NCBI RefSeq assembly: GCF_040436345.1
Contig: NC_133220.1
Location: 10,981,664 to 11,045,663, forward strand
DNA from: Pagrus major
Lineage: Eukaryota; Chordata; Actinopteri; Spariformes; Sparidae
Reading direction: 5' to 3'
DNA: 64,000 bases
Both the position numbers and the translations under genes were made by a program. Every line of letters begins with the position of its first letter. The stretch's first letter is position 1. A model generated the notes under the pieces. It had not been told where the DNA came from. It saw only the letters and a list, made by a program, of their open reading frames with translations, and did not search any database. Of the stretch, positions 174 to 41,010 are shown piece by piece.

Positions 174-273
174 GTTTTTTTTCTGTTACCAGCTCATAAA
201 ATAATACAGGAGGATCAGGATTTTTAAATAAACCATAATTAGCATTATACCTATGAGCTAACACAAATCACAA

Positions 274-359
<86 letters not shown>
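274..359. repeat. (TAGA)n microsatellite
   Basis: About 21 uninterrupted four-base units in a tulp1 intron, 12 bases from the donor of the exon at 372-543. A tract this pure is expected to vary in length between individuals. Confidence 0.98.
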
Positions 360-371
360 GACAGTACTCAC

Positions 372-14749: not shown

Positions 14750-15849
14750 AGCTGGCATTACCCTGAGAGCAGAGAGTAAAAGTCCTGAGAGCGGTCACTG
14801 CCCTGAGTCCCTGAGAGAGAGAGAGGGTGGCGGGAGAGAGAGTGCAAAGAGCCAGCACTCCCCTTGGAGACTTGTCCCCTCCGTTTTTCTGAAACAGGCA
14901 GTGCTCTTTTGAAACTGTGCCAATGGAGGCTGGCCCAAGCACTCGCAGCTGAAACTTTTACAAGCTCGGTGTTCGCGAGCAGGAAGAGAAAGACAGAGTT
15001 AAGATTTGTAAAGGGAGTTTGCAGCTTCTCTTCTTCGACCTGCCTGAGGTTTCAGCACAGTGATTCATGCTTGCTTTTTTGATCATTTACACTACAAATT
15101 CTTCAAGAATACAAACAGAAATGATCTGGAGAGACTGCATGAAGCGAGAAAGGATTTTAAGTATATGTATGGAGATAATTGCTTAAAAGAATGAAGAGTC
15201 TGTGATGTCACACAGAAGGCTGCCTTGGATATTGCCTGAGGAAAGATACTGATGAGTGTCTGTGGCACTCTGTGGTCGTGGACCCCTTTGAAAATTAAAA
15301 CGCCCTATTCAAGACTTGCACATTGGATTATTTTAGTGTGTTCAGTTTCTTGGTGACGGTCCACGGGAAACATTATTTTTGGATTTGCGTGTTCCCAGAG
15401 ATTGACCCTTCCCTTGCCCTTATTTGCGTTTTAGAGCTCCATGACACATTCTGTTACATGAGGATGTATTGTGGTAAACATCCCAGACCACTCGTTTGGT
15501 TTGTTATGTTGACAGTAAACACTGGTTTCCGCTCACGAGTACAATAAAAATGAAATCAGAGCGTCGGTGGTTGCCATGTTCTTCTACAGACTTTGCAACA
15601 AATCTGAATTAAAACACAGGCAGGTGCAGAACAACTAAAGACGTGCAGAGTGACTACCGAAAATGGGAACCGTGAGGCATGTACTACCCGGGAATGCTGC
15701 CAACTGCTGACAAAAGGTTTTACTGCACGGCTCTGGGACAAGCCTTTAACTCATTTGCTCTGAAATGCTTCAGGAATATCTGGCACTGAATTGTTTGGCC
15801 AACTGAAGATAAATCTGTCAAACCTTCTGGCTTTGTTACAAGACAGCAT
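14750..15849 (+). ncRNA. Candidate long untranslated exon, possibly of the let-7 host transcript
   Basis: About 1.1 kb of mixed-composition DNA begins with a GA-rich promoter-like tract (14810-14840). It lacks the repeats common around it and ends at a perfect donor (GACAGCAT, then GTAAGTACTC, with GT at 15850). It has many short frames but none coherent. Position and strand fit a first exon of a plus-strand primary transcript reaching the let-7 hairpins at 24.2 kb. The start is a guess, and the link to let-7 is inference only. Confidence 0.3.
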
Positions 15850-18611
15850 GTAAGTACTCACTTCTGATTCCTTAACCCAAGCTTATTTCTCCGTCTGTCT
15901 CTCTCTGTTTCATTCCCCACTCTCAGCCCTTAATCCTACAGTCAAGTGAGATGTCTATTTGATGACATATAATCTACAGTTCATGCAAGTCACAGAGTTG
16001 ACTTGCCACACACACAAAAAAAAAACATCGGTCTACTTTTATACATATTCCAGGTGGATTTCGTATCTTTGGTGGGAGTGTGTAAGCACAATTTGTGACT
16101 TCATGATTTCTTTTCCTGCCTCTCTTTCTCCTCACTGTTTCTCCCTCTTGGCAGCAGGGCAAAAGTGGGCAGGGAGAGAGGAGGGCATGGCCCAGAAACT
16201 GCTCTCAAGCCCCAGCCCCTGTTCAAGTGGGGTTGCTCGCTGGTACACTACTCAGCCTTTCCCTTGTCTTGCAGGCGAAAGAGAGGGATGTGGAAATGCA
16301 TTCTTGTCTCATTTCTAACCCACTTTTTTTTTTCTTTTACGCCGCCACCATGGCCTAATTCTCTGCGGGTGAACACTAGCCTGACCTGTACAAAAAAACT
16401 CACCTCCAGGTATTTCTCATTTTTGATTCTGCCTTTGTTTGGGCCTCGATATTCCTCTTTGTACTGAATATCTCATTTCTGTTGCACTTTTACACTTCTT
16501 TTTCTATCACCTTCCACACTGTACACGTGTCTGCTTTGCCTGCAACGAACACAATGTCGAAATCGCCACCATTTCTGCTCGGTTGAGACACAACGGGAGT
16601 TTGTTTTAAATAATGCTGTTTCCTGGATTAAATGCATTAAAAGATAATTACCAAAGCATTTGTATATAGTTACTGTAATGAGCAGTCTGTTTACATAGTA
16701 CGGTTCAATAAACCACATGCCCTGAGTAAAAAGACATTCAAGTGGTTGTGTTACTGCCTCTTAAAGTACAAGACTGTAATAAAAAACAACATTTAAGTAT
16801 AATTTACAGTCGGAGCCTAAAGACACTTCAACTCCAGCGGCTTGAACAAACAAATTTCACCCCATCAAAAGTGATTATTACCTGACATTTCCTCAAACAG
16901 GATATTATCAGAGACAAAAGGCATTTAACCCTTTTCATGAAACATTTCGGTTTCTGAGTTGGGGAGTTGCTACGTAGGTGCGACAAACAAGAGGCAACAT
17001 AAAATATCCTTTAGCTGTACGGTGGCTACTGTTCACCATGTATTTTATCACAAAATGAATATTCAAAATAATATGTTGTTTTGTATATCATACAGGAAAA
17101 TCGTGTGTACTTTCCTTAAGTGTTTTTGAACGCTGCTGTTTGATAGACCTGTTCACAAACCAGTATGAACCAGATCCCTCTGTTGGAAGCATTGTTCTAT
17201 ACATGAAGGGGCTTGTATTGCATGATTGCAGGGTCTCAGTTTCAGATCAAGCCTTTTCGGGTTATTTGGGTTTGTTTTGTAACCACAAAAAATGCGAAAA
17301 GCTATTAAAAGACATTAATAAAACTGGTTTAATACACTTTTTTTTTTTTACTGATTTTACTCTAAATGAACCGAACTGCAAACTGACTGTGTAAACGTTT
17401 TGCCACATGCTACTTGGTATGTAGTTGTGTGTGGTTTTTGTTTGCATACAGTCCAGTCAGCTTTTGTGTTTGAGTATGTGATAACGACAGATTATGGCAT
17501 ACTGTACTGTGCAGATAGGGTGAATGAAGAAAAGAAGGTGGAGGGTGCAGGGCGAATGGGCAGACCGAGAGTAATTGAACTTATTTCCTCCTCCCCCACA
17601 CTTATCCTCAGATGAACTCGCTATGCTGCTTGATGACATGTTGTTTGGAAAGCCATATCCTCAGCTATTTGCGTTTCTCTCCTCCCCATGGTTGGAATGA
17701 CTCTGTGGTGACCAGGATCAAAGTCTCTTTTTTTTTGGCTGTTGTTTTTATCAGGTCATACTGCATACACACATTCAGCTCTTCCTGTTTGTTAGTAAAA
17801 CTGTTTCGTGGGCTATAAACAGCATTTGATTTGACTCTTTTGACTTGCAAAAAAAAAAAAAATACCACTTACAGCTGTTCTAGTTTTGAGCAAAAGCCAT
17901 GAGAGATCTGTCTTGAGAGTAACATCTGGAAGGTCCAGATGTTCCCCCAGTGTCCTCACATTTGTTTTAACCTGTGTGGAATATTAGATTGGCAGGTTTC
18001 CCGTGACAGGATATAGAGCCACGTATGACAATAGTTCACTGAACTAACTTTCAGACACTCTCTTTGTGATCGTCTAACTTTCAGTCTCTCTTTCTGTTGA
18101 GTAACTTTGACTAAAATAAACCATAAAAAGCACTTGCAAAGACTTTTTTCCCCCTGGTTTCTTATGAATATCATTGTGTGTATAGCAAAGATCCATCTTT
18201 CATTATTTACCGGGTGGTTAATACAGAAGAATATAGATGCGACACACAAGCCAGGACAGACAGGACACGTCCACAGCCCGTAAGGGAATACGCACCACAA
18301 AGAACAGTCCTCAAGCCTCATGACTACAATAAAAAAACATGAAATAAACAACCCACAATAAAGCACTTTAAACACTTCACACAAAATGAAAATGTATAAA
18401 GTACATGTCATCAGCACTAGCCTTTAGAGTGGTGTAAAATTTTATTTTATCCAAAATCATCAAGATCAGTATGAGTATGCTTTAAAACTGGATTTTTGTT
18501 GCACCGTTACCCTTTGGATACATTGTACTTTATACAATTATACAATTATATTGGTAGCAATTTAGATATCATGATGCTGAATGTGTTAAAAAGTAAACAG
18601 TAGACACACAC

Positions 18612-18931
18612 TAGGGCTGCACAATTAATCCAAAATAATCGAAATCGCAATGTGACTACGTGCAATATCCAAATTGCAAGAACTGTTGTGTTTTAATGAA
18701 ATTTTGTATCGCTGTAGAGACGCTCTGGCCCACAAAGCTCGTTCTCCAGATGTAATAAAACATGTTTCTTTGGCAGAGACTGGGAGAAACGCCACATCAT
18801 CATGATTTTACTAGTTTCTCAATGACAATGAAAAAAGTGATGTCAAATTTAATCACCCATAATAATCATGAATTATATCGCAATTGCAAAATAATTGCAA
18901 TAACACCTTTTGACCATATCATGCAGCCCTA
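18612..18931. mobile_element. hAT-type MITE, TAGGGCTGCAC family
   Basis: A 320-base element with terminal inverted repeats TAGGGCTGCACAATTAAT and ATATCATGCAGCCCTA. The interior has the usual ATCGAAATCGCAATGTGAC and TGCAATATCCAAATTGCA blocks. The flanking octamers (about ACACACAC and ACAGACAA) are similar enough to be an eroded 8-base target duplication. No protein is encoded. Confidence 0.85.
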
Positions 18932-20559: not shown

Positions 20560-20880
20560 ATTGTGTGGCATCATTCCCCCTTTCTGACATGGCATCCTCT
20601 CATTGCTTGGCTGCCAATACTCTCCTCCCCCCTCAGTGGTAGGTTCTGCCATGCTGCATCCACGACATCACCCCCTTTTTTGTCTCATTGAGATTCAGCT
20701 TGGCACGCAGACAATGCCCTTTTCTTGGCACCAAATATTGGAGAGCGCCGCATAAGAGAACCAACCTCAGTCTTTTCCCTCACAGTCGTCCCCCGTATTC
20801 CGCCGATCATCATGGACCAACGCCAACTTGTAATGGGTATTTTTTGTGCCGTCGTCTTCTAAATTCTCAGTTTATTCCGC
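20560..20880. promoter_or_regulatory. Possible conserved non-coding block with NFI-like sites
   Basis: Compositionally distinct from its AT-rich surroundings. It contains TTGGCTGCCAATA and TTGGCACCAAATATTGG, which resemble paired half-sites of nuclear factor I. There is no repeat signature and no coherent coding frame. Conservation cannot be tested from one sequence. Confidence 0.2.
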
Positions 20881-22679: not shown

Positions 22680-24170
22680 AAGCAACACCAAAATCACTAG
22701 CAGTATTTCTTAACATGCATTTGTTAATCAGCTCTCTGAAATTATGAATGAGCAATTTCTTAAGCCAGGCTCAACATCCCAAATACCATTATTTGGGGAA
22801 AAATAAAGAGTCGAATTTAGGGATATCGATTGGAAGGCGGAGGCAGAAGCCAGCAGGTTGCACCCCAGATGTTGTGTGCTGGCGCCAAACTCCATAAAAT
22901 GGCCGTGGTACTGCCATTTTACATTTTTCTTCCTTTGCTTTACATTCTGGTTGAAGAGACATAATGGACCAAACCAGGGGTGAAGCTTGTTTAAAGTGAA
23001 CTATTTTTTAAGCCTGTTGTAAGGCAAAGCTAGAAAGACCCAAGCCAAGTTCAAGAGTAAAATAGACGCTAATTCTTGGCACAGCTGCCCTTCATTACAT
23101 GCCAATTTCCCAGGAAGTGATTTTTACCTTGCAGGATTACACAAATTACCACATGTTCTGTGGTGACACAAGCGTATTTGCAGGTCATTAAGAAAGTATT
23201 TCTTTTGCACTTTTCCAGTATGCTAATGTCCAGTGTGTCCATCACCTGTTGGTCTTCAGGAGTGGCCAAATACATCAATGCTGACCAATGCAAGTGTTCA
23301 GATACTGTATATCACTTACATACAGTGAACAAGGTAGTCGTGTCAGACTGGTTGTAACCCTTAAGAAACAAGCCTTTTACAACTCCGGCAACAATGTGGT
23401 GAGTCAAGTGAGGAAATTGCTCTCAGAGGGAAATTCCTGATAAAACTGTTACCAGACAACTTCATTCCATGGCAGGTGTTGTATTGAAATAATGTGGCTT
23501 AACATTATTGTGCAACATTGTTTAACATTATTATTATTGTGCATGTTTTGACTATTATTTTGGATGTAATTTTAGTAATTTGCTACAAAAAATCACCATA
23601 AATCTTAAAATGTTTTGACAGTTACATGAATGCATTTGAAAGTCTACTTTGTTAGGTTTCCCTGTGAAGCTTCTAAACTAGGGCTTGGCAATACATACAC
23701 TATATATCGTTACTGTGATATGAGACTATATACCGTCTGAGATTTTGGTTGTCATTATATTTTAACCTGAACTGTAATTTGAATTTACCAGACTGTTCTA
23801 CCTGTCTTAAAACCCGCCTTTACTGGTGATTATTTAGCATAATTATCATTGTGTTAATATTTTGAGAAAGTACAGATAGTTATACCTGCGATATTTGATT
23901 TTGTCACTCAAGGAAATGTGAAAATATCGAGATATACATCATGTATTGTGATACTACCTAAAAATATCATATTATTTTAAGGTCATATACTACACTAAAC
24001 ACAATCTGAAATTATTAGATGAGATTAAACCTTCCAATCTAGGCCTATATGCAGAACAAAAGATATTTTGTTAACCATTGTTGGCCCCTGGTGAATCAAA
24101 AAAATTAACTTATTCTCTCTTTATTTTTGTCTTACAGCCTGACTGACACGTTTCCACTGGTACCTGTACA
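22680..24170. other. Non-coding stretch before the let-7 pair
   Basis: Apart from the MITE at 23679-23997 I see nothing assignable. The hairpins may be processed from a transcript that crosses this DNA. Confidence 0.5.
23679..23997. mobile_element. Degenerate TAGGGCT-type MITE with ATATCG-rich ends
   Basis: Starts TAGGGCTTGGCAATACATAC, has CTATATATCGTTACTGTGAT near the left end, then AAATATCGAGATATACATCA and TTTTAAGGTCATAT near the right. This matches the layout of a common teleost MITE. The related right end at 30745-30944 keeps the terminal CACCTAGCCCTA that is eroded here. Confidence 0.7.
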
Positions 24171-24179
24171 AGTTTCTGT

Positions 24180-24270
24180 CCTTAAGGCTGAGGTAGTAGA
24201 TTGAATAGTTGTGGGGTTTAGATCCTCCCTCTGAGATAACTATACAGTCTACTGTCTTTCCTGAGGAGAC
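24180..24270 (+). ncRNA. let-7k: let-7 microRNA precursor, let-7k-like
   Basis: The 5' arm (24189-24210) starts with the let-7 seed TGAGGTAGTAG. It differs from let-7a only at mature positions 12 (A for G) and 16 (A for T), as I recall for chicken let-7k. The 3' arm (24240-24261) reads CTATACAGTCTACTGTCTTT plus CC and pairs with it around a loop of about 29 bases. The flanks CCTTAAGG and CCTGAGG extend the stem. let-7 represses growth and timing genes through the seed. It is the first of two hairpins on this strand, 309 bases before the next mature start, so both may share one primary transcript. The minus-strand open frame over it is accidental. Confidence 0.95.
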
Positions 24271-24485
24271 AGGTTGATCTGCTGTGATGCCGAAGCGTGA
24301 ATGTACAAGAAGCTTCATGGATGAATTAATTTAAGAGATAACAATAACCTCTGCGGAGGAAATTGCTGACACAACAAAGACTTGACACATTTGATGGTGC
24401 TGGTCTATCATAACAACACATATCAAAGTAGGTTCATATTGACTGAAGTCTTGTTTTTAAGGATATTCATTGCTGCCTAGAGTTG

Positions 24486-24582
24486 AGCCTAGCAAGGTGA
24501 GGTAGTAGGTTGTATAGTTTGTGGGATGGAGTAAATCCTACTCAGGTGATAACTATACAGTCTATTACCTTCCTTGAGAGGT
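24486..24582 (+). ncRNA. let-7j: let-7 microRNA precursor with let-7a-identical mature strand
   Basis: The 5' arm (24498-24519) is identical to the canonical let-7a mature sequence, starting TGAGGTAGTAGGTTGTATAG. The 3' arm (24553-24573) reads CTATACAGTCTATTACCTTC plus C and pairs almost fully, including TATAGTT with AACTATA and GGTAGTAG with CTATTACC. The loop holds GTGGGATGGAGTAAATCC. The precursor differs from the first hairpin in loop and 3' arm, so the two are old duplicates. The symbol let-7j is given by analogy with the chicken pair; by mature sequence alone it would be called let-7a. Confidence 0.95.
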
Positions 24583-24599
24583 ACAATGAGTGCTTGGAA

Positions 24600-25900
24600 C
24601 GAAGCTCACTCACACTGGACGAGTGGTGACGGAGCCACTCTGACGCCATCTTGTGGCCAAAGACTATCATCGCTCTGGACATTTTTAAGCTTTAGGACTT
24701 CGACTGTGTGTATTTGGGGCTTAAAGGAGGTCCTAAGCCTGAGATAAGTTATAGGTGGTCAAGGTAAAGGTAACTTCCTGGCTTTTGCTGGATTATAAAT
24801 AAATAATTAAAATCAGTGCTTTATGTTTTTGTTACTTTGCTTCATGTATTGTCACCTGAAAAACACAAATCCACTGTGGACATAAAGAGGAAGTGAAACA
24901 TGATGTCACCAGTTGTAATGGGGTCATATATTGAGAACTTGATGGCACAACTGGATGGCAAGGGTTGTTTAACATACAATGCTCTGTGATATAAATAAAG
25001 ATTAAAATAAATTAAAACATTTGATTCCCTACTGCATTGATGATAAAGTTTATAAGTAACAAACATTTAGTGTTCCTTTTTTAAAGGTTACAAATTGTAT
25101 CTGTTTATAAATCCGGTGTGTGTTGTTAGTTACTAAGCTGTATAGTCTTGTAAAAGTCAACAACTTATATACTTCACTTTTCTGATAGATGGCTCAACAA
25201 AATGAACCACAGTGCAAGTCTTACACAAGCAGAAATGGGAAATAAGACATTGAAAATAAGAAAAGTGGTGGTTAGTAAATATGCAGAAACTTTAATTATT
25301 TTGTATGCACAGAAAAGTTACAGCTGTATATACATTTTACATTGAGGAAACGAAACAAAGAGCTTAGCTAGCTTTTTTGTCTCAAGTTATTAGCTTAGCA
25401 AACAACTTAAGACAAAAAACATAAAAACACATAACATCATGATGAAATAAATACTGATGAGTCAAAGAAGTTGTATTAATCCAATCTAAGAGGAGATGCA
25501 CATCACTGGTAGCTGTCATTTTAAATGCATTCAACACACAGTATGTTGTATGTTCTGTTGCTAGGGGGTCTCGATAATAACAGTAGGTATCGGATGATGT
25601 CGTGAAATAGCAGGGTCATGGGTTTGATGTCTTCATTAGTAAACAACCACTGTTGCTGATAAAAAATAATCAATAATCTTATTCTCATTATGTTTGCTCA
25701 TGTTCACTGATTTCGTTCCTCACTCAAACAACAAAATATCTATGTCTAGCCATTTTATATTTTGAAAATATATCATATATCTTTATTTTAATGGGTGTAA
25801 GAAAACTATTTTTTAGAGAATGAACAGTAGGCCCCTATCTCTGCATTATGATTATTACTTAAGAAATAAACAGGATAAGGGCAGGATGAAGACCTGAATG
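24600..25900. other. Non-coding stretch after the let-7 pair
   Basis: AT-rich DNA with no further hairpin, gene or clear repeat that I can recognise. I looked for miR-10/99/100 and miR-125 type seeds, which accompany let-7 in other clusters, and saw none. Confidence 0.5.
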
Positions 25901-25911: not shown

Positions 25912-27219
25912 CACAGAGTGTTCATTTTCTGTTAAACAGGCTCATCCTGTATAAGAAAAGTATGCAGATAAAAAAATAAGGAAATACTAGAACAATGATC
26001 ATGCCTCAGGAAGATAAAAACAGACTTTATGCAAAACAAAGCCTATTAAGTAAGTATGATTGTGCAAAGTAAAGAAAATCATAAGACAGAATTGTACAAA
26101 AGGTTTATAAAAAATATCAGATATAATCATCTCTGATGCAGTATTCACAGGAAATAATCTACTCAATTATCTCTGTTCATCTAAATGGCTTGTTTCACAG
26201 AAACCTCAAGCAGTTATTGTGTTAACTACACAGTTTATGAATTGGTCTGTCCTGTTGTGATTCATTGAATATCAAATTAAATATTCATAAAACATATCAC
26301 TAAGTCAGGAGTCATCAGTTTACTCTGATAGAAAAGGGGTCCCTTAAGTAAAAGCTTGGGAACAACTGGTTGATGTTGTTAGTACAATTAGTAGTTGGTC
26401 ATGTATTGGTGATATTAAAACCGACTGACCAGAAAAACATGAACATCTGTGCAATGTAATGCTATCCAACAGAAAAGCTCTGCAAAAAATGTTTCCCTTT
26501 CTGGGGCTTGAGACTGTGTCAGAGACTAGTTGACTCAGCACTTTTGTCATCTTGGAGGCTGTACTCTGTGGGGTTGCTGCGGTACACTGCACTGTTTTGA
26601 AATGAGTGTCTAATGTCTCGTCTACTGCCATTTACATGGGGGGGAGACAAAATATGATAAAAAGATTTCTATCTTAATCCAATCCATGAACAAGTCTGAA
26701 AAAATAACAAAGAAAATATTGTTGCAGGCCTGATTATATTACACATTTGTACATACATTTCTTTTTCTGGTCAAGTGTACACTCAGTACAGAGCATGTTA
26801 AAGTCTAAGCTTGGTTTACGTATATCTAATGTAAAAGTTGCATTTTTTCAAAGATTTCCAAGACAGGGTGTGCTTTCTGTTGAAATGAACAATGAAGAAC
26901 TGGAACTTGAACAGAAACTCAAATACAAAAGTGATATGAAACTTGGTTTAAAACTAAAGCCTTTAAGACAAGTGGAAGTTGCCTTTTTCCTCTATAGTTT
27001 TCGCAATAAACCCATATATAGAGGGCACACAAACACAACCACATTTCTGTACAGATCTTTCAGTGCACATGGCTAGATTTGCTTATACAGATTGTCATCT
27101 TCACCCATTAAAAACTGGCTTTCTTACCTTTTTACGCAATATTTTACATTATTTACTGTGTCCAACAGTCAATCAAACTTGGTCCTTGAAAACAAAGAGG
27201 CAAACCAGGATGTCTTCAT

Positions 27220-28778
27220 TCATTCATTTTTTGCCACACTGTTCAAGTTACTACTGGGGTTGTTGTCTGTTGTCTGGCTTGTCTGAGATCCTTGCTCTTC
27301 TCCACATGCAACATATTCTTTCCAGAGCTTCAGATATGCTGCCTTGATCTTTTGTATTTTGAACGTATACACAACTGGGTTTACGGCTGAGTTAGCGTGA
27401 GAAAGCAGGATTCCAACATAGAAAGCTAATTCTGGTACATCACCGATCTGACCAAAGTAAGTGATGCAGTTCATTGTGTGTAGAGGGAGCCAGGACAGGG
27501 CAAACAGAGCCAAGACCAAAGACAGAGATCCTGCCAGCTGTTTCTCTTTCCTTAGGTAGTTCAGGGACTGGTTTTGAAATCCGTTGCCTGGTTTCTCACG
27601 GAGGTTACCTCGAATATTGTAGAAAATGTAGCCATACAAAACGGTCATCACCAACAGAGGGATGAGGGTGCAGAGTAAAAAGTTGAAGTAAACCAGGTAT
27701 GACATGGGGATCACTGCTATAAACTGGCAGACAATAGTAGAGTTCACTGACTTAGACAAGGTTTCACGGTTGTACCATCCAAGCATGGGAGCAAAACTCA
27801 GTGGTATTGCAACAAGCCAACATGCTGCTACCACAAGCCAAGAGTGTCTCTGTGTTACAGTCCTTTTGTACCTAAAAATAAAAGCATAAATGATTGATGT
27901 AGTCAACTGTGCATTCAAAACATGTTCAGTACAAATAGCAACTATATAAAAGCATGAAATCATTGCAGTGATGAACAGTAAATAATGCCTTTTTTATAGT
28001 GCAAGCCATGCAAAGGGTTCAGAGATGAGGATGAGATAAAATGGATAAAAATGTAAAGCTTCTAATTCAAGCCATGCCTAGCAGCGATATTTTTTTTTGG
28101 ACTACAAGTAATGGTTGTTTTTATTATTGATTAATCTGCTTATTATTATTCAAGGTTAATCATTTGGCAAATAACACATTTTTTAAAAATGTGGTTTTTG
28201 AGAGCCCAAGGTTCAAATTGCTTTTGTTATCCAACCAACAGGCCGAAACCCAAATACTCTTCATTTACAAAGAAGGCAGCTAATCCTTACATTTAAGAAG
28301 CTGGAACCAGCAAATATTTGACATTTTTGCTTAGTGATTACTCAATTATCAAAACAGTTGCCAACTAATTTTCTTTTGATCAACTAACCATTGCAGCTCT
28401 ACTATTTACTTTTCTCTACATAATAAACCATCCACAAAAAAAGTCTTACCTGAGAGGGATACACACCCGGAGGAATCGGTCCACTGCAATGGCCATGAGA
28501 GACAAAACTGAGACTAGGGTCAACAGGATGACCACACAGCTGATGAAGAGACAGCCGTAGAACGAAGTCTTCACTTGTCTGTCCACCACCACGGCCAACG
28601 GGATGGCCAAGCAGCCAACCATAAAGTCAGCCACAGCCAGAGAGACGATGAGGCAGTAGGTAGGCTGCTGAATGATTTTACTTGTCCAAAGTGCCAAAAT
28701 AACCAACATATTCCCAAGACAGCAGCTAACAGCAATGAACACCTCCAATAACGTGTAGATCACCTCTCCCACAGCCAT
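27220..28778 (-). CDS. adora3: Adenosine receptor A3-like, two coding exons
   Basis: Class A G-protein-coupled receptor for adenosine at the plasma membrane; A1/A3 types lower cAMP through Gi. Exons 28778-28450 and 27871-27220 join across phase 2 (CTCAG with GTAC) to give 326 residues; human A3 has 318. Seven membrane segments are visible. Helix 2 has [10 protein letters not shown]; helix 3 ends AVDRFLRV, so the usual DRY is DRF. Helix 6 has [14 protein letters not shown] and helix 7 [18 protein letters not shown]. The Asn in MNCITYF and the His in SHANS match adenosine-contact positions. The third outer loop (FGQIGDVP) lacks the A1/A2A CPxC motif, and the GILLSHANS tail end resembles A3. An NST glycosylation site lies in outer loop 2. 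I chose MAVGEV as the start; an in-frame ATG 18 codons earlier would add [18 protein letters not shown]. The intron carries a MITE at 28100-28401. Confidence 0.92.
28100..28401. mobile_element. hAT-type MITE inside the A3-type receptor intron
   Basis: Contains TTATTATTGATTAATCTGCT, GGTTAATCATTTGGC, AGAGCCCAAGG, CAACCAACAGGCCGAAACCC, GAAGCTGGAACCAGCAAATA and ends TTGCAGCTCTA. This is the full order of blocks of a very common teleost element. It fills about half of the 578-base intron. Confidence 0.85.
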
Positions 28779-28849
28779 GACTGAATGTGAGTCCGAGCGT
28801 GAATGTGCTGTGCTGTGCTGTGCTGTTATCATTCATCTCTGTCTTGTGA

Positions 28850-31800
28850 AACCTTTGAGGAAGTCCTCAACCACTGTGCCTTCTCTGTAATGCTTTGCAT
28901 TTGCTTTTGCTTTTTTTTTTTTTACTATATTTGTTTATCACTTTTAACTTTTAATTCTGTGTCAAAAAAACTGCCGGCTGTTGCAGTAGATTATATGAAT
29001 GAAAAGAAAATGGGTTACAATAAGAGCCATAGAGTTTTTAATTTGTCAACAGAAAACTATTTAAAATTTCATGAGGACAAATGGGACTGGTTTTCAGATA
29101 AATACTTGCTTATACTTTTGGATTCCCATTAGCTCACATAACCTGTTTTAACTTTCATAGAAAGGTTCAGTTTTGAGATTATTAACGGAAATGTTTCACC
29201 ATAGGGACTACTTGTTTTATAACTCACCCCTGGATCCTTTAATTTTTTTAGGAACTTTTTTTAAAAATGTAAGTTTACAATCATAATAAGGGTAAAAAAC
29301 GAACTTGACCTTAACAGACCTTCCGAAACGAGCCATAAGATAACCACGTGCGCTTATGCCCGCCCACGCTCTGCAGGTGTGCTCTGGTACTTAAAAAAAT
29401 AGCACTACACCTCTGGGGGTGAGGGTAGTATATTACAGGGCAATTGGGGTGCTTTGTTTAACTTTCATATGTTTGTGTTGCCAAAGTCAGAGTTAGTGAG
29501 GAAAGCAGTAGTTACTGCATTTAATTTTAGTTTTATGAGTATGTGTTTAGCATGTTTAACTGCATGTTATTGCAGCCACAGTAAAGCACATTACATCTAA
29601 TATGCTGAAACACTTGTGACAGTAGTGACAGTATTGCCAAATCCATGTCGTAGCAGGATGTGACACCATTGACGGTGATTAAAACCAATACACCACCCAC
29701 CCTTACTGTAAATCCATTAGTGTCTTACAGGAGCTAAATGGTATTCTGCTGCTGATGTCTATCAAGTTACACTTTTGATAAATTATGTTGCTGATAGCAC
29801 TGAAGTAAGTTCAGTTCTCGTGTGTCGTGGGCTTCTAACAGGATGTGAACATGCAGAGAAGTGATAAATTGATTTCTTTAACATCAACACATCATCTAGA
29901 TTGTGTTCTGAGCACTGAATGCAGTTTCAGGAAATAACCACTGCTTCTTCTAACCCTGATCCTAATCTAAACTCTGAAATGCTCGATTCATTTTTTCCTC
30001 TCTCGTGGTGTCTTGTCTTTGGACTGGTGGTTATGGTGGCGGTTGGGTATAAGCATTATCTACATCAGTTACATAAATTAAAGTTACTGACTCTCTGGAA
30101 CCTGTCTCAGTAATTAAAATCATATCTTACCACCGCACTTGCACTGAAAATGACCTCAGTTATCTATTCCCAAACAGAAGGTATCACAGTAAAATCTTCT
30201 GTCTTGTTAATGAACATATTTTCCTTCAAATTTAAGCCTAAATTAAAATTACTTTTCTGTTCATTCACTTTTAAAAACATTGCTTGACTTTGTTTTTATG
30301 TTAATAATTTACATAGGTGATTAAAATTAGGCTATCTGCTGCCATTTACCTGTCAGCTAGAAAGAAAATCTCCCACTGAACAAAAATGTCAAAATCAGTT
30401 GACAACTCACTAACTTTTCCTAAACTAACCCTTTATTCCTCATCACATTGTGCTAGCCTTGACCAAAACAAAAAACTGAACAACACAATTTGATGATACT
30501 CATCATCAAGGCCATCTTACCTCACTGAAGTGGCCTAACTCCTGATTCATAGCAGATTATGGTTACACATATTTAAAATGCAATCTGCAGTAGAGTAAAC
30601 ACTCTACACATCACACCAGAGACCTGGAATCAAATTTCTCACATACAATTTTCATCAGTCTTTACTGATCTTTCCTCCTGGTCGCCTCCATTTTTCGTTT
30701 GCAACATATAAAACTAGCTTAGAATTGAGAAAGATTAAGAAAAGAGCAATATATCAACACCATATCATCTTAGATTTTGGACATCGTTTTATCGCCTTAT
30801 GGTAAGTGTTATCTTTTCCTGGTTTTAAAGGCTGCATTACAGTAAAATGATGTAATTTTCTGAACTTGTCAGACTGTTGTACTTGTTCTAATACTTGCTT
30901 TAAGATATTGTGATATTATTTTAAGGCCATATCACCTAGCCCTATTTAAAAGCACTAATAAACAGATTGTAGGTAACTATGTCCCAGCTTTTAGTACACC
31001 TTGGCAACAAACTGCAAATGTCCTTGCAGCAACCTACCTACAGCTCATAAATACTACGGTTGAGTTCAGATATTTTACAAACCAAATAATCTTTCAATGC
31101 AAAATAAGCAGTGTGTACTTCTGGACTGAGCAGCCAGTACATCTGCCATGTAAGTTATTTGCATTAATTTCCTTTGCTGTGTGTTTCAAGTGATAGTTAG
31201 GGTCTTCTAATGTGGGGTTGTCTGAGGTATTTATCCATAGTCTGTATTACCTGCAGTAGAGGACTGTGCTTGTAGCTACAGCAGGGAAGCAGAACATTGT
31301 ACTGCTGTAAATGGTACCAACAGCAAGACGTATTTCAGCCACCTAAAAGAAGTGCCACCTAAAAAAATACAGTACATACCCGTTTCAGTGTATGCTATAT
31401 TCTGACAGTTTTTGGCGCTTTACATTGCCCTCAGACAGCCGCTGAAAGTCAGACCCAAACAGCTGATCTGTGGCATAATACAGGGCACGGCTGTGTTTGT
31501 GTGTAGGAATACAGATGTTGTACTGCTGACGGCATGTAGTACCAAAGGAAAATGCTGTCTGTATGATTTCGGCTTTATTGTTCAAATGGCAGGGAAATTA
31601 AAATTGGACGTGCGTCTGGGCTCGTAAGGAGGGTTTGAGGACAAAAATCAGTAGCTGGATTGGAAACCCCCATCCCCCTCCACCCCAATATATAGAGATT
31701 CAAACATAACAATAGAAAAACTTCAACTTCTTCATGACCAACTTCCAATGCCCCTCAAAAAGGAAGTGCTCCTTAACAAAGTTTGGTTCCTGCATTGATG

Positions 31801-32670
31801 TGTTTCCTCGGTTCTTAGTTTAGTCAGTAAGTTTCAGTGTTAAGTCCATTCAGTCAGTTTCAGATCCGTTCTATTCTGTGTGCCGTGTCAAATTTAGTTC
31901 TGGTTGCATCTGAAAATAAAACAGGCAAAGGGAATGTGGGGCTTGTGAAACAGACCTACTACACTCCTCAGGAAGGAGAGATGATTAGGTTCAACGGTGG
32001 CTCTCCATCGCCTTCATCAAGCACAGAATCCAGAATCCAAAGTCCGAGGCACTTCAGAGGATCTCAAAAAGCCTGCAAACAACAGAGCTATTACTTTCAG
32101 TCCCTAAGTCTCAACTATCTATGGAAATATTGAAATGTCACATCATCAAAACTATATATAACAAATTATATTAATTAAGTTGTTTTAAACTGTAAAGCAT
32201 CTCCTTGTATAAAACATATTTTGTTCTTGTTACATCAATCATGAATTATGATTTTTAACATTTTAAACTTGAATCATGGCTTTTGAAGATTTTACCAATG
32301 CAGCTTACACCATTAACTGACGTGTCTGTACGCAGCATTAACTTGTTACACACCTCAAATTTCTATAATTAATATAACATCCTGGTGCATATACTTTTTC
32401 ACATTTCCATTCACATTTCACCATCATTCTGCAAAAGAACCCAATTAGCAGCTAAATAAAAGATAAATAAAAGAACTTTGTTTTTTGTTTTTTATTATTC
32501 AATTAGAAAATTAATGCAGAACTTATCTTTTGACACACTTTAATATCTTACTGCAGCAAAATTTCAGCCTGAAATTAAATACAAGCTCTCTCCCTGCAGT
32601 ACCATATGCTGCCTATCCGACTAAGGTAGTTAGCTGTGTTAGCTTAGCTTAACGTTAGCTACGAATGCAC
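28850..32670. other. Intergenic AT-rich stretch upstream of the A3-type receptor
   Basis: Between the receptor start exon and a candidate promoter at 32.7-32.9 kb. If that promoter belongs to the receptor, this is its 5' intron. It holds a MITE right end at 30745-30944. Otherwise I see nothing assignable. Confidence 0.5.
30745..30944. mobile_element. MITE right-end fragment
   Basis: Ends TTTTAAGGCCATATCACCTAGCCCTA (shown here as TTTTAAGGCCATAT, then CACCTAGCCCTA). The inner part has GACTGTTGTACTTGTTCTAA and GATATTGTGATATTATTTTA. It is related to the element at 23679-23997. Confidence 0.65.
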
Positions 32671-32674
32671 TCAC

Positions 32675-32960
32675 CAAGACATGGCAAAAACAGTAATTAA
32701 CCAGCGGCACATTTGGGTCGTAGATCGATATTCTTGTCTGTTGTCCGTACTGCTCGAGTTCACGTACAAATTAATAAACTATTCATATATATTTTGTAGT
32801 TCAACTGAGTTTCTTTTGGCTTCACACTCTGTCCTTATCGCTTTTGCGCTCCCCGTGGTGTTGAACTTGCTACCCGGATGGGGCGGGACTTAACTAAGTT
32901 CCGCCAATAGGTAACTTTCACGTGCGCCGTCCAACCAATAAGATGTAAACAAAATCATTT
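32675..32960 (-). promoter_or_regulatory. Candidate promoter and first exon, minus strand
   Basis: A small island of CpG-containing DNA in AT-rich surroundings. It has a GC box (GGGGCGGG at about 32879), two CCAAT boxes (CGCCAATAGG, AACCAATAAG) and CACGTG-like CACGTGCG. On the minus strand the DNA then runs to a clear donor, CATGTCTTG followed by GTGAGTGC (GT at 32674-32673). This would fit an untranslated first exon for the A3-type receptor 3.9 kb further on, but no acceptor link can be proven. It could also serve an unseen transcript. Confidence 0.4.
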
Positions 32961-33319
32961 TGACAGGCAGGCATGTTAAACTATCCAGTTCTCAAAAATA
33001 AGACTGAGAGTGAAGTACATCTATGTAACATTGTCTCTCCTGGGTTATATAAACATAAACTAATAATAATAATAATAATAATGATGTAATATGATATTAG
33101 GCCGACTGACCCTCTGATTCATTAAGAAGGAGAATGAAGAACAAGCAGTATGTTGTTGGTCTCATGTGGCTTTGGTCCATTACTTCTGCAAAAAAAAATG
33201 GAAATACTGCACTGTGCTTTCAATAGCTAACATTTGTTCTTGTTTTGGCTCCCAAAAGCATGAAGATGTACGGCATTTCCCGGTATTTAGGAATAATGGT
33301 ACATTAGCTACTTAACAAT

Positions 33320-33560
33320 TCATTAAAGTTGGTGCTATCAGAGTGATCAGATGATGACAAAGGGTTGTTTACACTTGGCACAGTTATTATGACTGACTCA
33401 TGCAGCATTATTGCATAATCATGTAATTACAAAATGTGATGTGCAAGCCCAGAAGAACCTAAGCATGTCACTAGTTTCACTTCATTTATCATCATGAATG
33501 GAGCCCAGATATTAATGAGCTGGCATGACACAGAGAAAAAGATGTGCAAGCTTAGCAAAC
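33320..33560. promoter_or_regulatory. Possible conserved non-coding block
   Basis: Contains TGACTGACTCATGCAGCATT (an AP-1/MAF-like site), then ATTGCATAATCATGTAATTA (POU/homeodomain-like) and GATATTAATGAGCTGGCATG. No repeat family or open frame is evident. The call rests on appearance only. Confidence 0.2.
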
Positions 33561-35379
33561 AATGACTTTCTTAAAATGTACCATACAGCAAACAAAATAA
33601 ACATGAAGATATGAAAGTGATGATAGCCACAGTATCTAGAGGAACTAGGGTCTTGCTGAGAAAATGCTTTTGTCAGTTTTCCCCATAACAATGCTCAACA
33701 ACAGAGGAACCACCAAACTACCATCCACACACTGGTTGACCTAATGCTGACACTTGTAACATAATCAGTCACAATTAATCAGGTTTTTCTTTTAATTGTA
33801 ATGTGTCTCATAGTAGGCTATGGCATAGTCTTGTTTTAATTAATAACATGAGAATACTAGGGCCTTTGAGAAAACTTGTAAAAAAAAAAAAAGTAAAAAA
33901 TTCTGAAAAGTAGCGCCTACTTTGAGCTGGTGCAACGTAAATCCACTTTAATGTCAAACAAAATTATTGCAGAAAATGATTCAAATGAACTGATTTTTAT
34001 CCATTGAGCTCCATAAAATGGAAACACGACTGTTATTTTCACTAAAACAGAAACAGCACAATCTAAATGTATTGACCCTACAGCTGTCTCCTGTTGCTCT
34101 CAGCTTGAACTTGTATTTTTCAGACTGGGAAGGTGTGCAGTTATGCATCTTGTTCACGCTGTTTGTTAGTGTAATGTTAGCTGCCTAGCTAGTCTTTGAG
34201 GGTAGCTGTTGGCAGCAACTTTTTTCCCCTTGTAGGCTACTTGTTGATGGATAACTGAATGTCCAATGTAGCATCAAAGATGACTATTTAAGCTACTCTG
34301 CATTTTTTTTTGCTTTTTTGCTTTGGCAGGTAAGTGTCTATGTTATAGGCTAGGCTAAACATGGCCTAATTTTCCCCCTAAGGTGTCCTGACCAAGCCCC
34401 AAGGGAGGGCACCAGGCTTTGAAGCCAACTTTCGCAGTGGCTGAACTGTGTAATTAAAACATCACGTGGTGTACTGGGGCCCAAAAATACATTTGGAAAG
34501 TCCTGAAGAGCCGCAAGATTAAATCATTTTATCTCTATTCGAGTTAGCTTGGTGCTAAACTGGGAGTTGGGCCACTACCTCCAACACTGCATCTAGGTTT
34601 TGATGTAACGTCCTTGGTTCTGACTCATACATTGAAAACATTGGAGTGCGTGCAGGAAAATGTTTTGCATTGTGTGAATCTTCGACCCAGCCTTATCTAT
34701 CATTTGCTTATCAGGACACATGTATACATATCCAAAATTTAATATGAAACTGTCTTGTCCCCTCATCATTATAGCAGCTATTTCCAGCGCACACGCTGAC
34801 TATATGCCATGTAGAGAAATGTTATAAGCAAATAAGCAAATAGGGCCCATTGGTGTTACATCTGGTGGACAGAAACACAGCTATAAGTTTAAGTATACCA
34901 CCATTTTTGCTGATAAACTTAATAGTGTGAGCATGTGTCTTTGAGTTTATAATCTTTAAAAGTCAAAAAATGCTTGAATCCTATTATCCGTATTGGATTG
35001 AAATAGCAAAAGCGACATTTGAACACAAAGGGGAAATACACACACAAGCAGGGTGGACACCAGGTCTGAGTAAGGCTGCACAATAACTGCCTTTGGTTTG
35101 ATGCGTCATTGTTTTTTTCTTATCACAGCTTTAACAGGTGAGCCGATGAACAAGTCAGTCTCCAGCAAAACTCACTGTATGTAAATCCAGTTCCTGCTTC
35201 ACATAGTATGAATAAGAACCTGCAAGGAGCTGAAGTCTTTCACTGCTGTAGATGGAGTTGATCTGTGCATAATATAATATTCACAGCCACTCCCTGTTTA
35301 TTAATTTGAACACTCAGATCCTTTAGGCAAACTGCTGGTTGATCGATTAATATAGACACAAACGGAGACGGCATAGCAG

Positions 35380-35560
35380 CAGAGTGAAATAAATTCTACA
35401 TTAAACTTGAAAGCTTCATGAGGATGTTGAGAATAATTTTGTTAATTGGAACCGGTAATAGAAGCTGTACTGTCATGTAATCCCTGTGGCGCATGTGCAA
35501 GCGGATCCCTGCAAGGTCATAATCAAATTAATTATTTCTGTTTATAGATAATGATGTGTT
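35380..35560. promoter_or_regulatory. Possible conserved non-coding block
   Basis: Contains GTTAATTGGAACCGGTAATA, CATGTAATCCCTGTGGCGCA and AATCAAATTAATTATTTCTG. It is a non-repetitive stretch with clustered homeodomain cores. Low confidence. Confidence 0.18.
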
Positions 35561-37375
35561 TCGTGGCGTAACCTAAGGAAACCGTCTGTAGAGGAATATC
35601 AGTCAAAGACATTTTCATGGAGCCTTTAAAATAATGTGTATTTTAGTGTGGTATGCTGAAAACACAAGTCTACAAAATGTTTCAATCTGCAGAATTGTAA
35701 TAGGGTTCATGTCATGTTACATTAATTTTTCATATGTAACCACAAATACAAAGGAGAGTTTTTATATTACTGGATCGATTCAAGCCGGAAAAAGAAGCGA
35801 GCAAACTGCGACAAACAATGAGGGTTGAACAATAAAAGTGCAACAAATGCAGTATGATGGTCCTCTTGAGTGCTGAACCAATACATTTGATAGATACCGC
35901 AGTATATATGGCATTTACAGTTAATGCGTTTCCAGTTGAGATTGCATGTAGGGAGTCCCACTTGAGATAATTAAGCCATGTGGGATGACAGAGGCCCAAT
36001 AAAACTGATTCAGTGTCAGCTCATGAACACTCTGATGCATAGACCAGAGCCTGAGATCACAGGCAATATCCCAAAACAACAGTCTGAGTCATCGCTTTCT
36101 CTAAGAAGAAAAAAGGAAAAAAACTGAAGTCATCAGCATCAGAGTGAATATATTTACAGGCAGACATTGAATCTGCTTCCTTAAGCAACTGAGGACCATC
36201 TCAGTGATTGCCTGCTCAGTGATACTTGCTGCCAAAGTCTTTTCATGCTCAGACGGACAATTAAATTAAGTTTTTGAAAGTAATTGAACTTTTGGAACCA
36301 ATTCCTACCTGCAGTTTACCTTGCAGTCCAAGTTGTGTACGTCTGGACATTATGTGGAGAACAACATAAAGAGATTTTTAAAAAATGTGCTTTTGCAGGT
36401 TGGCAGTGACAATAAAACATGTGATAACAATTTTTTGAGAAACACCTCTAAAGTGTTCAAAAAATGACAAAAGCATAAAGAGATTTGTACCGCTGAATAG
36501 AATTCAGTTAAATGTCGTGCTGACATATTTTAGTAGTGACAGGAGATGGAATAAGTGATGAAGTGGAGGTGAACCGCCAAAACATGTCCCTCACGTATTG
36601 AAGTGATTCGATTAAATTGGAAAATAAGTGCACACAGTTTTGGTCATCCTTATGACAGTCAGAGACTTCAGTCATACTAAAGATGATGAAATGTAACAAT
36701 AATGGATTCATCACCGCCATGAAATATTAATATAAATGGTTTCCATTAAAACCTTTAAAAGGAGCGTATGGCCAGAATTTTAGAATTTAGCTTAGCTTAG
36801 CATAAAGATAAGGAGAAGTGGAATCAACTGGCTCTGTACAAAGTTAACAAACCCAGCACCTACCAGCACCTCTAAAACTTGCTTATTAACAAGTGACGCC
36901 TGGTTTGTTAAATTTTTTAAAAAAGAGGAACAAACAACCAAGTGTAAAAATGACACATTGTGGTTTCAAGAGGGGACTATTTTTTGGTTGGAGGAGGTGA
37001 CTTCATGGGGTCTTGTCATCCTCCTGAGGTTGAATGATAATGAACTTTTGAGAGTAAGAAAGACTAATCACAATATATTGATAACTACTGTTTATGTTCC
37101 AAGCATTTTTAAAAACATCCCGAGGTTAATAAAGAATTGTTACCACAACGAGTACTGAACAGTTGAAAATCAAACTTGTCAGTGCTATCTGATAGACAAA
37201 CTGCAATGTTAACTCTATTTCTCAATCATACTGTATCTTTAGCATGGCATCTTAATTACTCACTAATGCAGATATGGATAAAACTGATCAGCTCTAATGC
37301 AGACCCACCCGTCATTAGGGGAGAGCATGTTGTTTGTGACACCCTCAAATAGCTCACAGTTCCTCTCAAAAACCA

Positions 37376-37378
<3 letters not shown>

Positions 37379-37434
<56 letters not shown>
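37379..37434. repeat. (CA)n microsatellite
   Basis: About 28 uninterrupted dinucleotide units, 0.4 kb upstream of the A1-type receptor start codon. It produces false Cys/Val open frames on the minus strand. Confidence 0.98.
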
Positions 37435-37436
<2 letters not shown>

Positions 37437-37813
37437 AATATGAGCAAAACTACTGCTGCAGACTGCTGCAGAAAGCAAAGTCCCTCCCCTTGATTTTATG
37501 ACTCCATGAGAGTGACTAAGAGAGAGAGTCAGAGTAAGGATGTAGAGGAGTAGTTATGCACTGGTACCCACTTCTGAGGAGAGCTTGAACCACATACTGA
37601 GGATTCATCATTCTTCATCCCTTCATGAACGCAATGGCAACTCATTGCGTAAACACTGCAGAGAAAAAGTAGTGTTCTTTCAGGTGGAGAACATACATAG
37701 TGGAAGATGTTTTTGCTGAAGCAACCCCTAAAGTGGAGGCTAGAATTTTCAACAACTAATTTTCATTTTTTAACAATCTAAGTAAAGGTAAGCAAGGCCT
37801 GTGCACAGTCAAA

Positions 37814-40687
37814 ATGTCCTCCTCTCCTGGTATCAAGCCTCGGGAGCATGTGGACATGATGTACATCTCCATCGAGACAGCTATTGCTGTTGCCTCTGTG
37901 CTGGGGAATGTGCTGGTGGTGCTGGTTGTGCGTGTGAACCGGGATCTCCGCAACACCACCTTCTCCTTCATCGTGTCTCTAGCAGTGGCTGACATCGCTG
38001 TGGGAGTTTTGGTCATCCCTCTGGCTATTATCATCAGTCTGGGATTCAGCACTCAGTTCTACACCTGCCTCTTCCTCTCCTGCCTGCTGCTGATCATCAC
38101 CCAGAGCTCCATCCTCTCCCTGCTGGCTATCGCCATCGACCGATATCTGCGCGTCAAGATTCCCACCAGGTGAGGAACTGCAGCTTACTTTGAAAGGTGT
38201 CATTTGGGTTTCTCAGGATTGAGACAAACTGATTGAAAGAAAGTAGAAATTTTGGATTTGGATAATGAATGTTGAGATCTCACTTTCTAGAAAAGAATAA
38301 CTGCATCAATATAATTATCTGCTTACAGTAGGCACAATAAAATATTCATATAACTCATATAGAGCTATAGGAAGTGGATGTGATTGCCTGTTCCAGTACA
38401 TTGCCGCTTCCTGATAACAACTCTTACTCAGACATGTTATTGACATAAGCGCTGTTTATTCATTAGCCTGACTTCAGGAGAAATCAATCGATACCACATT
38501 ATGTACCGATTAATTCAAATAACTTTCATATTAGGTTACCCAAATTACAAAATTGTATTCGAATGGACTCAGAACAAACAGTAAAACTCGTCTGATAATC
38601 CTACCTTTTAGAGAAGACCCGAGAATATTAAAAGAAGACCAAGAACAAATAGTCTCTCTTACTTTTCTATTCCTTTTAGCATCAGAGAGCTAAATGTGTG
38701 CTTTTAGCCTCAGAGAGTCAATCAAGAGGAGGTGGTTCGCTGTGCCGATGTCTGACGTGGAGCCATATATCGTTGCTGGGTTTAATGCAGATCGATGGGC
38801 TGGACATCAAAAGCTTTTAAGCAAATGAAAATGTCACCATCAGCCTAAATAAATGACATAGGCGCAGTTTGTTTAGGGATTTTTGGCAGATGCCCGTACT
38901 ACTTTTTGTTTACAGTTGGATGTCAAAAGCTGAGACAAATGCTTCTGAACCATAACTTATGGACTGGCGTGTGTTCAAAGAAATAATAGTCCAGTAGCAG
39001 CCCAGTCGCCAGGATATAACGTCAGCAGTTATTGTTTCTGCAAACCACAGACACGTACAAACATGCCAACTCAGCCGACTCCAAATCATGAGGTGATGTT
39101 ATCACACGGCAACAAGGCTGTCAAATGCCCGACCACAGTTCAAGTCACACCACTGGATATATTTCCAGCCATTTTTGTGGAGACCTGGGGACAGGAAGTC
39201 GGACCATCTCCATTTGTGATTGTGGCGACAAAAACAGGTATTTTAAGCCATAACACGATGTTTTTCTCGCCCTAACCAAGTGGTTTTTGTGCCTAAACCT
39301 AACCAGAGCATAAGCACTGTAAGGGTTGTAGTAGAACAGGTGGACCAAAAAGTTGACAGGGATTATATTTGAAAGGTGAATTTACTGATCACAAAGGCAT
39401 CGCTGGCAGGTAGAGGTGGTGAGCTCGAGCATAGGCAGGTGGCTCCCAGGGTGGTGCAGGTGGAGACTCACGGTTACGCAGGTGGCTGGCTCAGGCAGTC
39501 AGGGTTGAGTTGGGGGGGCAGAGGTGCGGAAGCCTGTATGGCGAGCAGTAGAGGAGCTGGTCCACAGGAATGGTCCGGGTCACACTGAAAGCGGAGAGAG
39601 GCTGGATTACAGCGCTGGCGAGTAAATATCATAAAAGCTTCTAAAACATATACTCAAGACACACTGAGAGAAACCAGGTCTGGGTATGAGAGCAAGTGCT
39701 GATTACATCCAATGTGCTGCAGGTGTGTGGACCGGCACAGCTCTGGCCATCAGAAAAGCCACACCCAGCCTCACCAAGCACCTCTGAAACACAAAGTACA
39801 AGAGCAACCCACAAAACAGGCTGCCACAAAGTCCAGTCGTAACAAGCACAACATTTTGACAAGAGAGAAATAGAAAATTCAACCTAAACAAACGTAAAGT
39901 TGCAACATAAAGAAGTTTTAACTTATCTGTGGTTTTGCAGAAACGAACTTGGCTAACATTTCCTCTGCCGACTGGGTTGGTAGTATGCATGTGTGCAATT
40001 TTGTGATTGAACGTTCTGACTCCATTTTCTTTTCTAATAACTCTGCTCAGGTACAGCACCATAGTGACCCAGGGGAGGGCATATGTGGCGGTTTGTCTGT
40101 GTTGGATCCTCTCCTTCCTCACTGGATTGGTTCCAATGATTGGTTGGAATAACCTTGATGCTCAAAGAAACCTCAGTGTGTCCAGCGACATTGTCTGTGA
40201 ATTCACCACAGTCATGAGGATGGACTACATGGTCTACTTCAATTTCTTCGGCTGGGTGGTGGTACCACTGTCCATAATGATTGCTCTGTACGCGGAGATC
40301 TTCAGGGTGATCCGACGACAGCTCAACCGGCGTGCTGAAGCCACTTGTGATGGAGAAAGGTACTACCGGAAAGAGCTAAAGCTGGCCAAATCGCTGGCCT
40401 TGGTGCTCTTCCTCTTCATTGTGTGTTGGCTGCCGATACACATCATGAACTGCATCAACTTCTTCTGCCCAGAGTGTCACGTACCCAAGTTTGCCATGTA
40501 CATCGGCATTTTCATGTCTCACGTGAACTCAGCACTCAACCCATTGGTTTATGCATTCAGGATAGAGCGGTTCCGCGTCACGTTGATCCAGATCACTCGC
40601 CGTTGCATGTTATGTAAACCCACAGAGCCCACTCCGTGTCCCACCAGCACACCGGCCCTGGCGAAGAAAGTGGATGTTAACACGTAA
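37814..40687 (+). CDS. adora1: Adenosine receptor A1-like, two coding exons
   Basis: Seven-helix adenosine receptor of the Gi-coupled A1 type, a brake on neuronal and cardiac activity in vertebrates. Exons 37814-38169 and 40051-40687 join in phase 2 (CCAG with GTAC) and give 330 residues; human A1 has 326. The start ATG has A at -3. Seen motifs: [20 protein letters not shown] in helix 2, [14 protein letters not shown] after helix 3, MIGWNNL and CEF in outer loop 2, [19 protein letters not shown] into helix 6, and [14 protein letters not shown] in outer loop 3. The CPxC pair separates it from A3. Helix 7 has [20 protein letters not shown]. Tail cysteines (RRCMLCKP) could be lipidated. There is an NLS glycosylation site in outer loop 2. 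The 1.9-kb intron contains dispersed repeats. It points away from the A3-type gene 9 kb to the left. The exact teleost paralogue is undetermined. Confidence 0.92.
38990..39340. repeat. Dispersed teleost repeat in the A1-type receptor intron
   Basis: Contains ACAAACATGCCAACTCAGCC, GTCACACCACTGGATATATT, CCATAACACGATGTTTTTCT and CCCTAACCAAGTGGTTTTTG followed by TGCCTAAACCTAACCAGAGC. The CCTAAACCTAACCA end is typical of an abundant percomorph family. Following DNA to about 39.8 kb is GC-richer and may be a second repeat. Confidence 0.7.
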
Positions 40688-41010
40688 GAAGAGCTGCAGC
40701 GCATCTGTATACGTGGTTTACAGTGAGATGGTGCAGCAATGACGATCATGGGATTATGTGATATTTGGAATATCAACAAAGCACTTCATCAAGTCCTGGG
40801 ACACGTTCATTTCTGACCCATTCATATTTCTTCTTAGTTTTTAAGAGTATGAGCCTGCAACCAGAACAAAATGATACCCCCATCATTACTATTTTGTTTT
40901 GACTAAATGCTTCCTTAATCGATTCATATTGAATAATAATTTATATGTCAATATAATAGGTGATACAACAAACGTGTCATGTTCAAAGAGCTTGTTGGTA
41001 AATTCACCAG

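Follow-up and report, generated by a model that had tools for sequence, protein, structure and literature searches.

A two-hairpin let-7 cluster of Pagrus major, its second copy and its published counterparts

The let-7 pair and its neighbouring genes

The 64,000-nucleotide stretch of Pagrus major DNA analysed here (contig NC_133220.1, positions 10,981,664 to 11,045,663; hereafter the window, which lies on the contig called C6) contains two let-7 hairpins on its forward strand, with a TULP1-like gene to their left and adenosine receptor genes to their right. A cmscan of the whole window with 4227 Rfam families gave two matches above any gathering score in the 64000 bases, and both times the family was let-7 (RF00027, gathering score 53.5 bits). 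Hairpin 1, the 5' member of the pair, was matched at 24183–24264 (+) with 68.1 bits (E 4e-12), and hairpin 2, the 3' member, at 24492–24577 (+) with 75.0 bits (E 5.6e-14). These matches and the mature starts at 24189 and 24498 agreed with a preliminary description of this DNA, in which two let-7 stem-loops had been placed 309 bases apart on one strand.

Folding of the two precursors, which the preliminary description had proposed as a check, produced hairpins in both cases. The minimum free energy was -30.2 kcal/mol for hairpin 1 (z -3.79) and -38.6 kcal/mol for hairpin 2 (z -6.45), and none of 200 shuffles was equally stable for either. The reverse complement of hairpin 1 folded unremarkably (z -0.60) and that of hairpin 2 was unusually stable (z -4.75). 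We take the latter fold to be a consequence of complementarity and not a sign of an antisense gene.

The 5p mature begins with the let-7 seed, UGAGGUAG, in both hairpins of the window, as it does in all 21 hairpins above the cut-off in the genome. The predicted 5p mature of hairpin 1 (24189–24210, +) carries the claimed A at both position 12 and position 16 and is identical to the published fish let-7e and chicken let-7k. That of hairpin 2 (24498–24519, +) had been called identical to let-7a, and it agrees with the let-7a sequence given in PMC3092494. A let-7k/let-7e-type hairpin thus lies upstream of, and adjoins, a let-7a-identical hairpin on the same strand, and we take hairpin 2 to be the counterpart of chicken let-7j.

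The genes around the pair were assigned from a Pfam scan of a selection of 10 of the 254 open frames listed in the window, and from PDB matches. A TULP1-like gene with Tub-domain exons occupies 268–2138 (-) and extends past the left end of the window. Its exon at 268–666 (-) scored well above the Pfam cut-off and had Tubby-related protein 1 as its closest PDB match, with TULP3 and tubby close; the exon at 1893–2138 (-) scored 22.7 bits, under the curated cut-off of 27. Two more Tub exons were found, one at C6:10983221-10983349 and another outside the window, to its left, at C6:10981082-10981192. To the right of the pair is an A3-like adenosine receptor gene at 27223–28832 (-), with exons read at 28449–28832 and 27223–27993, both matched by Pfam 7tm_1. 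The best PDB match of the exon at 27223–27993 was the adenosine receptor A3 (E 3.8e-48). The let-7 pair therefore does lie between tulp1 and adora3, as first described, and on the strand opposite to both of these flanking genes. In the literature searched, no paper was found in which let-7, ADORA3 and TULP1 all occurred as whole words.

A second adenosine receptor gene, A1-like, was found at 37760–40684 (+), with its exon at 40007–40684 closest to A1. The A3-like (-) and A1-like (+) genes are thus arranged head to head within 13.5 kb (window 27223–40684). In human, the A1 and A3 adenosine receptor genes are widely separated.

The second copy and the let-7 complement of the genome

A search for let-7 across the genome (786 Mb, 25 contigs) identified at least 21 let-7 places above the cut-off, as seven two-hairpin pairs and seven singles; 57 of 112142 candidates were scored, so these counts are a lower bound. 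A 22nd row of the search was the opposite strand of a counted place and fell below the cut-off. The window pair is not the only one of its type: a second let-7k/let-7j-type pair was found at C7:14502605-14502972, with hairpins starting at 14502605 and 14502886. The C6 and C7 pairs have identical 5p matures in identical order, and their hairpins are 87.8% and 87.4% identical. When window positions 23900–24900 were compared with C7, the alignment was confined to the hairpins.

Trees of all 21 hairpins were consistent with this pairing. In the IQ-TREE analysis, the two let-7k-type hairpins of C6 and C7 clustered with support of 99 and the two let-7j-type hairpins with support of 95. The let-7k-type hairpins joined the 5' hairpins that we label let-7a-3-type, since a let-7b-type hairpin comes after them (support 73), and the let-7j-type hairpins joined a let-7f-type hairpin (support 73). 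All seven 5' members of pairs were grouped with support of 40, or 0.83 when the same alignment was analysed with FastTree, and several other deep nodes of the IQ-TREE analysis were supported at 23–42 only.

The C7 pair also has an A3-like adenosine receptor gene on the opposite strand, the last frame of which ends about 480 bases downstream of hairpin 2. The last coding stretch of this gene is in a different frame from the preceding one, which we read as a putative intron. The encoded receptor was closest to A3, with A1 and A2A near behind. Two of its exons were 42% and 57% identical to the A3-like gene of the window and 41% and 53% identical to the A1-like gene, so that these identities favour A3 kinship only slightly; place and strand favour A3 also. 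As a control, window positions 27000–41000 were compared with 12 other let-7 loci, of which 11 gave no match; the 7 rows from the remaining one (L010) all fell at window 30756–30902, outside the receptor exons. A genome search for Tub-family exons, in which all 21 candidates were scored, located them on C4, C6, C14, C16, C20 and C22 and none on C7. Within 10 kb on either side of the C7 locus, the A3-like receptor was the only neighbouring gene shown to be common to the two pairs. The likeness between the pairs extends to their 5p matures, order, strand relation to the A3-like receptor and upstream blocks (see below), whereas they differ in star strands, loops and spacing and in the absence of a Tub exon from C7. 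The star of hairpin 2 in the window is one base different from its C7 counterpart and unlike the stars of all 20 other hairpins, so that it is diagnostic of the window copy; the star of hairpin 1 is not, being identical to that of C7:17623196.

Several other features of the let-7 complement were observed. On both C8 (C8:17174518-17480258) and C14 (C14:11133940-11290738), a let-7a/let-7b pair is accompanied by a let-7i-type hairpin, at a distance of 305 kb and 156 kb, respectively; these arrangements agree with the association of let-7 loci G and I reported in flounder (PMC8869744). In 14 of the 15 long stretches, L009–L022, which were scanned, a mir-10-family hairpin was found near two single let-7 hairpins (L016 and L018). 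Two pairs on C7 (C7:4741949-4742524 and C7:17622938-17623276), which we take by name to be of let-7g/let-7h type, are on one chromosome with 12.9 Mb between them; teleost duplicates are as a rule on different chromosomes. Two single hairpins (C16:16441426-16441505 and C17:14769471-14769550) scored 55.7 and 53.5 bits, at or just above the Rfam cut-off. The mature that they have in common carries a T at position 10 and a G at position 19; it is presumably zebrafish let-7d, and with that match the notion that the genome is without an ordinary let-7 variant was dropped. As expected, exact searches of viral contigs with the let-7k mature, and of prokaryote contigs with a 28-base stretch of hairpin 1, gave no match.

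These data allowed other readings of the window pair to be weighed. That it represents a let-7-like repeat or chance hairpins instead of genes has a negligible probability: nothing was found in support of such a reading, the E values, as given above, were low for 64 kb compared with the whole of Rfam, and there are at least 21 let-7 places above the cut-off in 786 Mb. A decay of the C6 copy toward a pseudogene, with the C7 copy making most of the RNA, would fit the longer branch of hairpin 2 in the window (0.158, versus 0.046 on C7) and the weaker folds there (-30.2 and -38.6 kcal/mol, versus -33.8 and -44.6 on C7). However, the 5p matures are intact in both window hairpins, both hairpins are above the Rfam cut-off and far more stable than their shuffles, and the branch of hairpin 1 is shorter in the window (0.066) than on C7 (0.104). 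In addition, in the structures as read, the sole difference in the star strand of hairpin 2 turns a G-U pair into an A-U pair. We consider decay of the C6 copy unlikely.

The C6 and C7 pairs might also have arisen by segmental copying instead of by the teleost genome duplication, as only one neighbour gene was shown to be common to them and the search for Tub-domain exons gave none on C7. Against such copying, receptor exons with only 42% and 57% identity, and an alignment in 23900–24900 limited to the hairpins, indicate that the copying event was old. In addition, flounder likewise has two copies, Ha and Hb, that were attributed to the teleost duplication (PMC8869744). A segmental origin is thus very unlikely, and the best reading of the two pairs is that they are products of the teleost duplication, with the C7 copy lacking the Tub neighbour.

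Upstream blocks and the LIN28 motif

Upstream of the let-7 hairpins, four non-coding blocks were found to be common to C6 and C7, all on the same strand, collinear and in let-7 sense, at E <= 0.002. The block at 14918–14989 (+; 75% identity over 72 alignment columns, E 1.05e-6) is a candidate part of a pri-let-7 promoter or exon. The block at 16142–16173 (+; 90.6% over 32 bases, E 1.3e-5) contains the splice-acceptor-like CTTGGCAG, with its last G at 16154, and is a candidate exon start of a host transcript. That at 17594–17618 (+; 92% over 25 bases, E 0.002) may hold the acceptor of the next exon, CCTCAG, with its last G at 17611. The remaining block is at 20684–20734 (+; 84% over 51 alignment columns, E 2.5e-8). 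Pyrimidine-rich runs are present in two of these blocks, ending in GGCAG in that at 16142 and in CCTCAG in that at 17594. A weak block at 16404–16432 (+; 82.8% over 29 bases, E 0.28) has a donor-like CAG/GTATTT with the last exon base at 16409 and is a candidate exon end, for which the evidence is its collinear place alone. Further matches to C7 at E <= 0.05 were at 13148 in let-7 sense (0.023) and at 18688 in antisense (0.007).

In an upstream control with 12 other let-7 loci, 11 were without a match on either strand at E <= 0.002. At E <= 0.05, with the loci oriented by their let-7 strand, there were five matches, all in let-7 sense: two to L018 (0.007 each), one to L014 (0.023) and two to L010 (4.8e-11 and 2e-9). 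Window positions 23702–23988 and 30751–30944 both have about 80% identity to one 0.4 kb part of L010. As the L010 stretch also matches window 30751–30944, we regard it as a dispersed repeat, of which the copy at 23702–23988 is directly upstream of the let-7 hairpins.

From their sequence, we infer that the common upstream blocks may be parts of the let-7 primary transcript, with putative splice sites near 16154, 16409 and 17611. In flounder, lncRNAs have been described over both copies of let-7 cluster H, Ha and Hb (PMC8869744).

The precursors themselves differed in the motifs associated with LIN28. According to a figure legend in a review (PMC5368188), the human let-7 precursors share a conserved GRAG motif, with the exception of let-7a-3, a reported LIN28 escaper. 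In the present genome, GRAG is directly before the 3p arm in 15 of the 21 hairpins. The hairpins without it at that place are all four of the k/j type (TGAG in the k hairpins, GGTG in the j hairpins) and two of the let-7a-3 type (TCAG). The j hairpin of the window has a GGAG elsewhere in the loop, further 5', and the cold-shock-domain motif GNGAY was matched in all four k/j hairpins. This pattern suggests a weaker contact of the k/j hairpins with the LIN28 zinc finger and not a loss of LIN28 binding.

If the contact is indeed weakened, the cluster lost in therians (see below) could be a let-7 source under weakened LIN28 control, and oviparous vertebrates would have two LIN28-independent let-7 loci where therians have one. 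This idea draws on the absence of GRAG from all four hairpins and on the grouping of the k hairpins with the let-7a-3-type hairpins, at the modest support of 73. We consider it doubtful, and the finding that let-7k-5p was one of 4, out of 17 chicken let-7 RNAs, whose change in DF-1 cells ran counter to that of Lin28B (PMC7823903) speaks against an escape from LIN28.

Published counterparts, reported loss in therians and overall explanation

Comparison with published records showed that the window pair is the fish let-7e/let-7a-5 cluster, the counterpart of chicken let-7k/let-7j, and that it is already known. Table 1 of PMC5372658 lists dre-let-7e/dre-let-7a-5 for zebrafish, ola-let-7e/ola-let-7a-2 for medaka and fru-let-7e/fru-let-7a-3 for fugu. 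In these clusters let-7e and let-7a are paired in the same listed order as in the window, although one typical cluster is tabulated per species and the present genome has two. The mature at window 24189–24210 is called let-7e in the naming of flounder, sturgeon, tilapia and zebrafish, and the possibility that the pair had gone unrecognised in fish is ruled out by this naming together with the table. The mature has been sequenced in olive flounder, zebra finch, sturgeon (18018 reads), common carp (up to 180455 reads) and silver carp, where a table gives an equal mature as dre-let-7e. In zebra finch the let-7k mature was also named let-7e, a primer with this mature was used in tongue sole under the tilapia name oni-let-7e, and the exact sequence occurs in PMC4698583. 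As the 5p sequences of the C6 and C7 copies are identical, published let-7e reads fail to separate the two. The chicken pair is likewise a two-hairpin let-7 cluster, with let-7j at chr26:1442697-1442779 and let-7k at chr26:1442897-1442979, their starts 200 bases apart, and both are expressed in lung and trachea (PMC2777939). The assignment of the window pair to the let-7j/let-7k type, and its age in vertebrates, were borne out.

The chicken let-7 pairs given in PMC2777939 are let-7f/let-7a-1, let-7a-3/let-7b and let-7j/let-7k, and the human clusters given in PMC4742387 are let-7a-1/let-7f-1/let-7d, let-7a-3/let-7b and let-7f-2/mir-98. Because a comparison of these sets leaves only j/k, the window pair is very probably, by elimination, the pair called cluster H in studies of let-7 evolution (Hertel et al. 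2012, via PMC4378963 and PMC8869744), which is similarly a homogeneous let-7 pair, present as Ha and Hb in flounder. A 2015 paper (PMC4378963) reported that oviparous animals have retained cluster H and that its loss followed the split of Theria. The preliminary description had supposed that let-7k is missing from humans, and let-7k is indeed not in the human let-7 list of PMC4742387. It had also proposed that the cluster was lost in mammals. For therians this stands, but it does not apply to all mammals, as platypus (oan) is marked for this mature in PMC3092494, a mark that agrees with a therian loss. The evolutionary idea was thus mostly right in outline and already in print, with the loss being therian, that is, marsupial and placental. 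TULP1 and ADORA3 are on different chromosomes in human, where a rearrangement could mark this loss. A pig cloning paper, which prints the let-7k sequence with chicken as its sole reference species, lists 6 reads named let-7k, which conflicts with therian loss unless these reads are an artefact; we take them to be a cloning or naming error.

Taken as a whole, the window is with high confidence best explained as containing a conserved two-hairpin let-7 gene that was doubled in teleosts and would have a spliced host transcript from which two 5p RNAs are made. The hairpins, the C7 copy, the common receptor neighbour and the upstream blocks were observed here; the transcript, its splicing and processing, the targets and the duplication dates are inferred. 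The two early vertebrate genome duplications would most simply have left two-hairpin let-7 clusters of four kinds: the window pair, let-7a-1/let-7f-1, let-7a-3/let-7b and let-7f-2/mir-98. The teleost genome duplication would later have given the C6 (window) and C7 copies. A spliced, + strand, non-coding transcript probably starts about 9 kb upstream of the let-7 pair, and its cutting by Drosha and Dicer would yield let-7e-5p and a let-7a-identical 5p RNA with a common let-7 seed. Both 5p RNAs would be expected to act as repressors of let-7 targets, in differentiating as well as in adult tissues.

The new details concern the C7 copy, which has the receptor neighbour and the upstream blocks in common with the window, and the LIN28 motif that the k/j hairpins lack at its usual place.

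Fish let-7e, which is the same as chicken let-7k, differs from human let-7e, and the therian loss is consequently masked by names. Recognition that chicken let-7k and fish let-7e are one removes this naming trap. The C6 and C7 pairs are old duplicates whose candidate primary-transcript blocks can be matched to each other, which makes them useful for tests of the let-7 host transcript and of LIN28 dependence.
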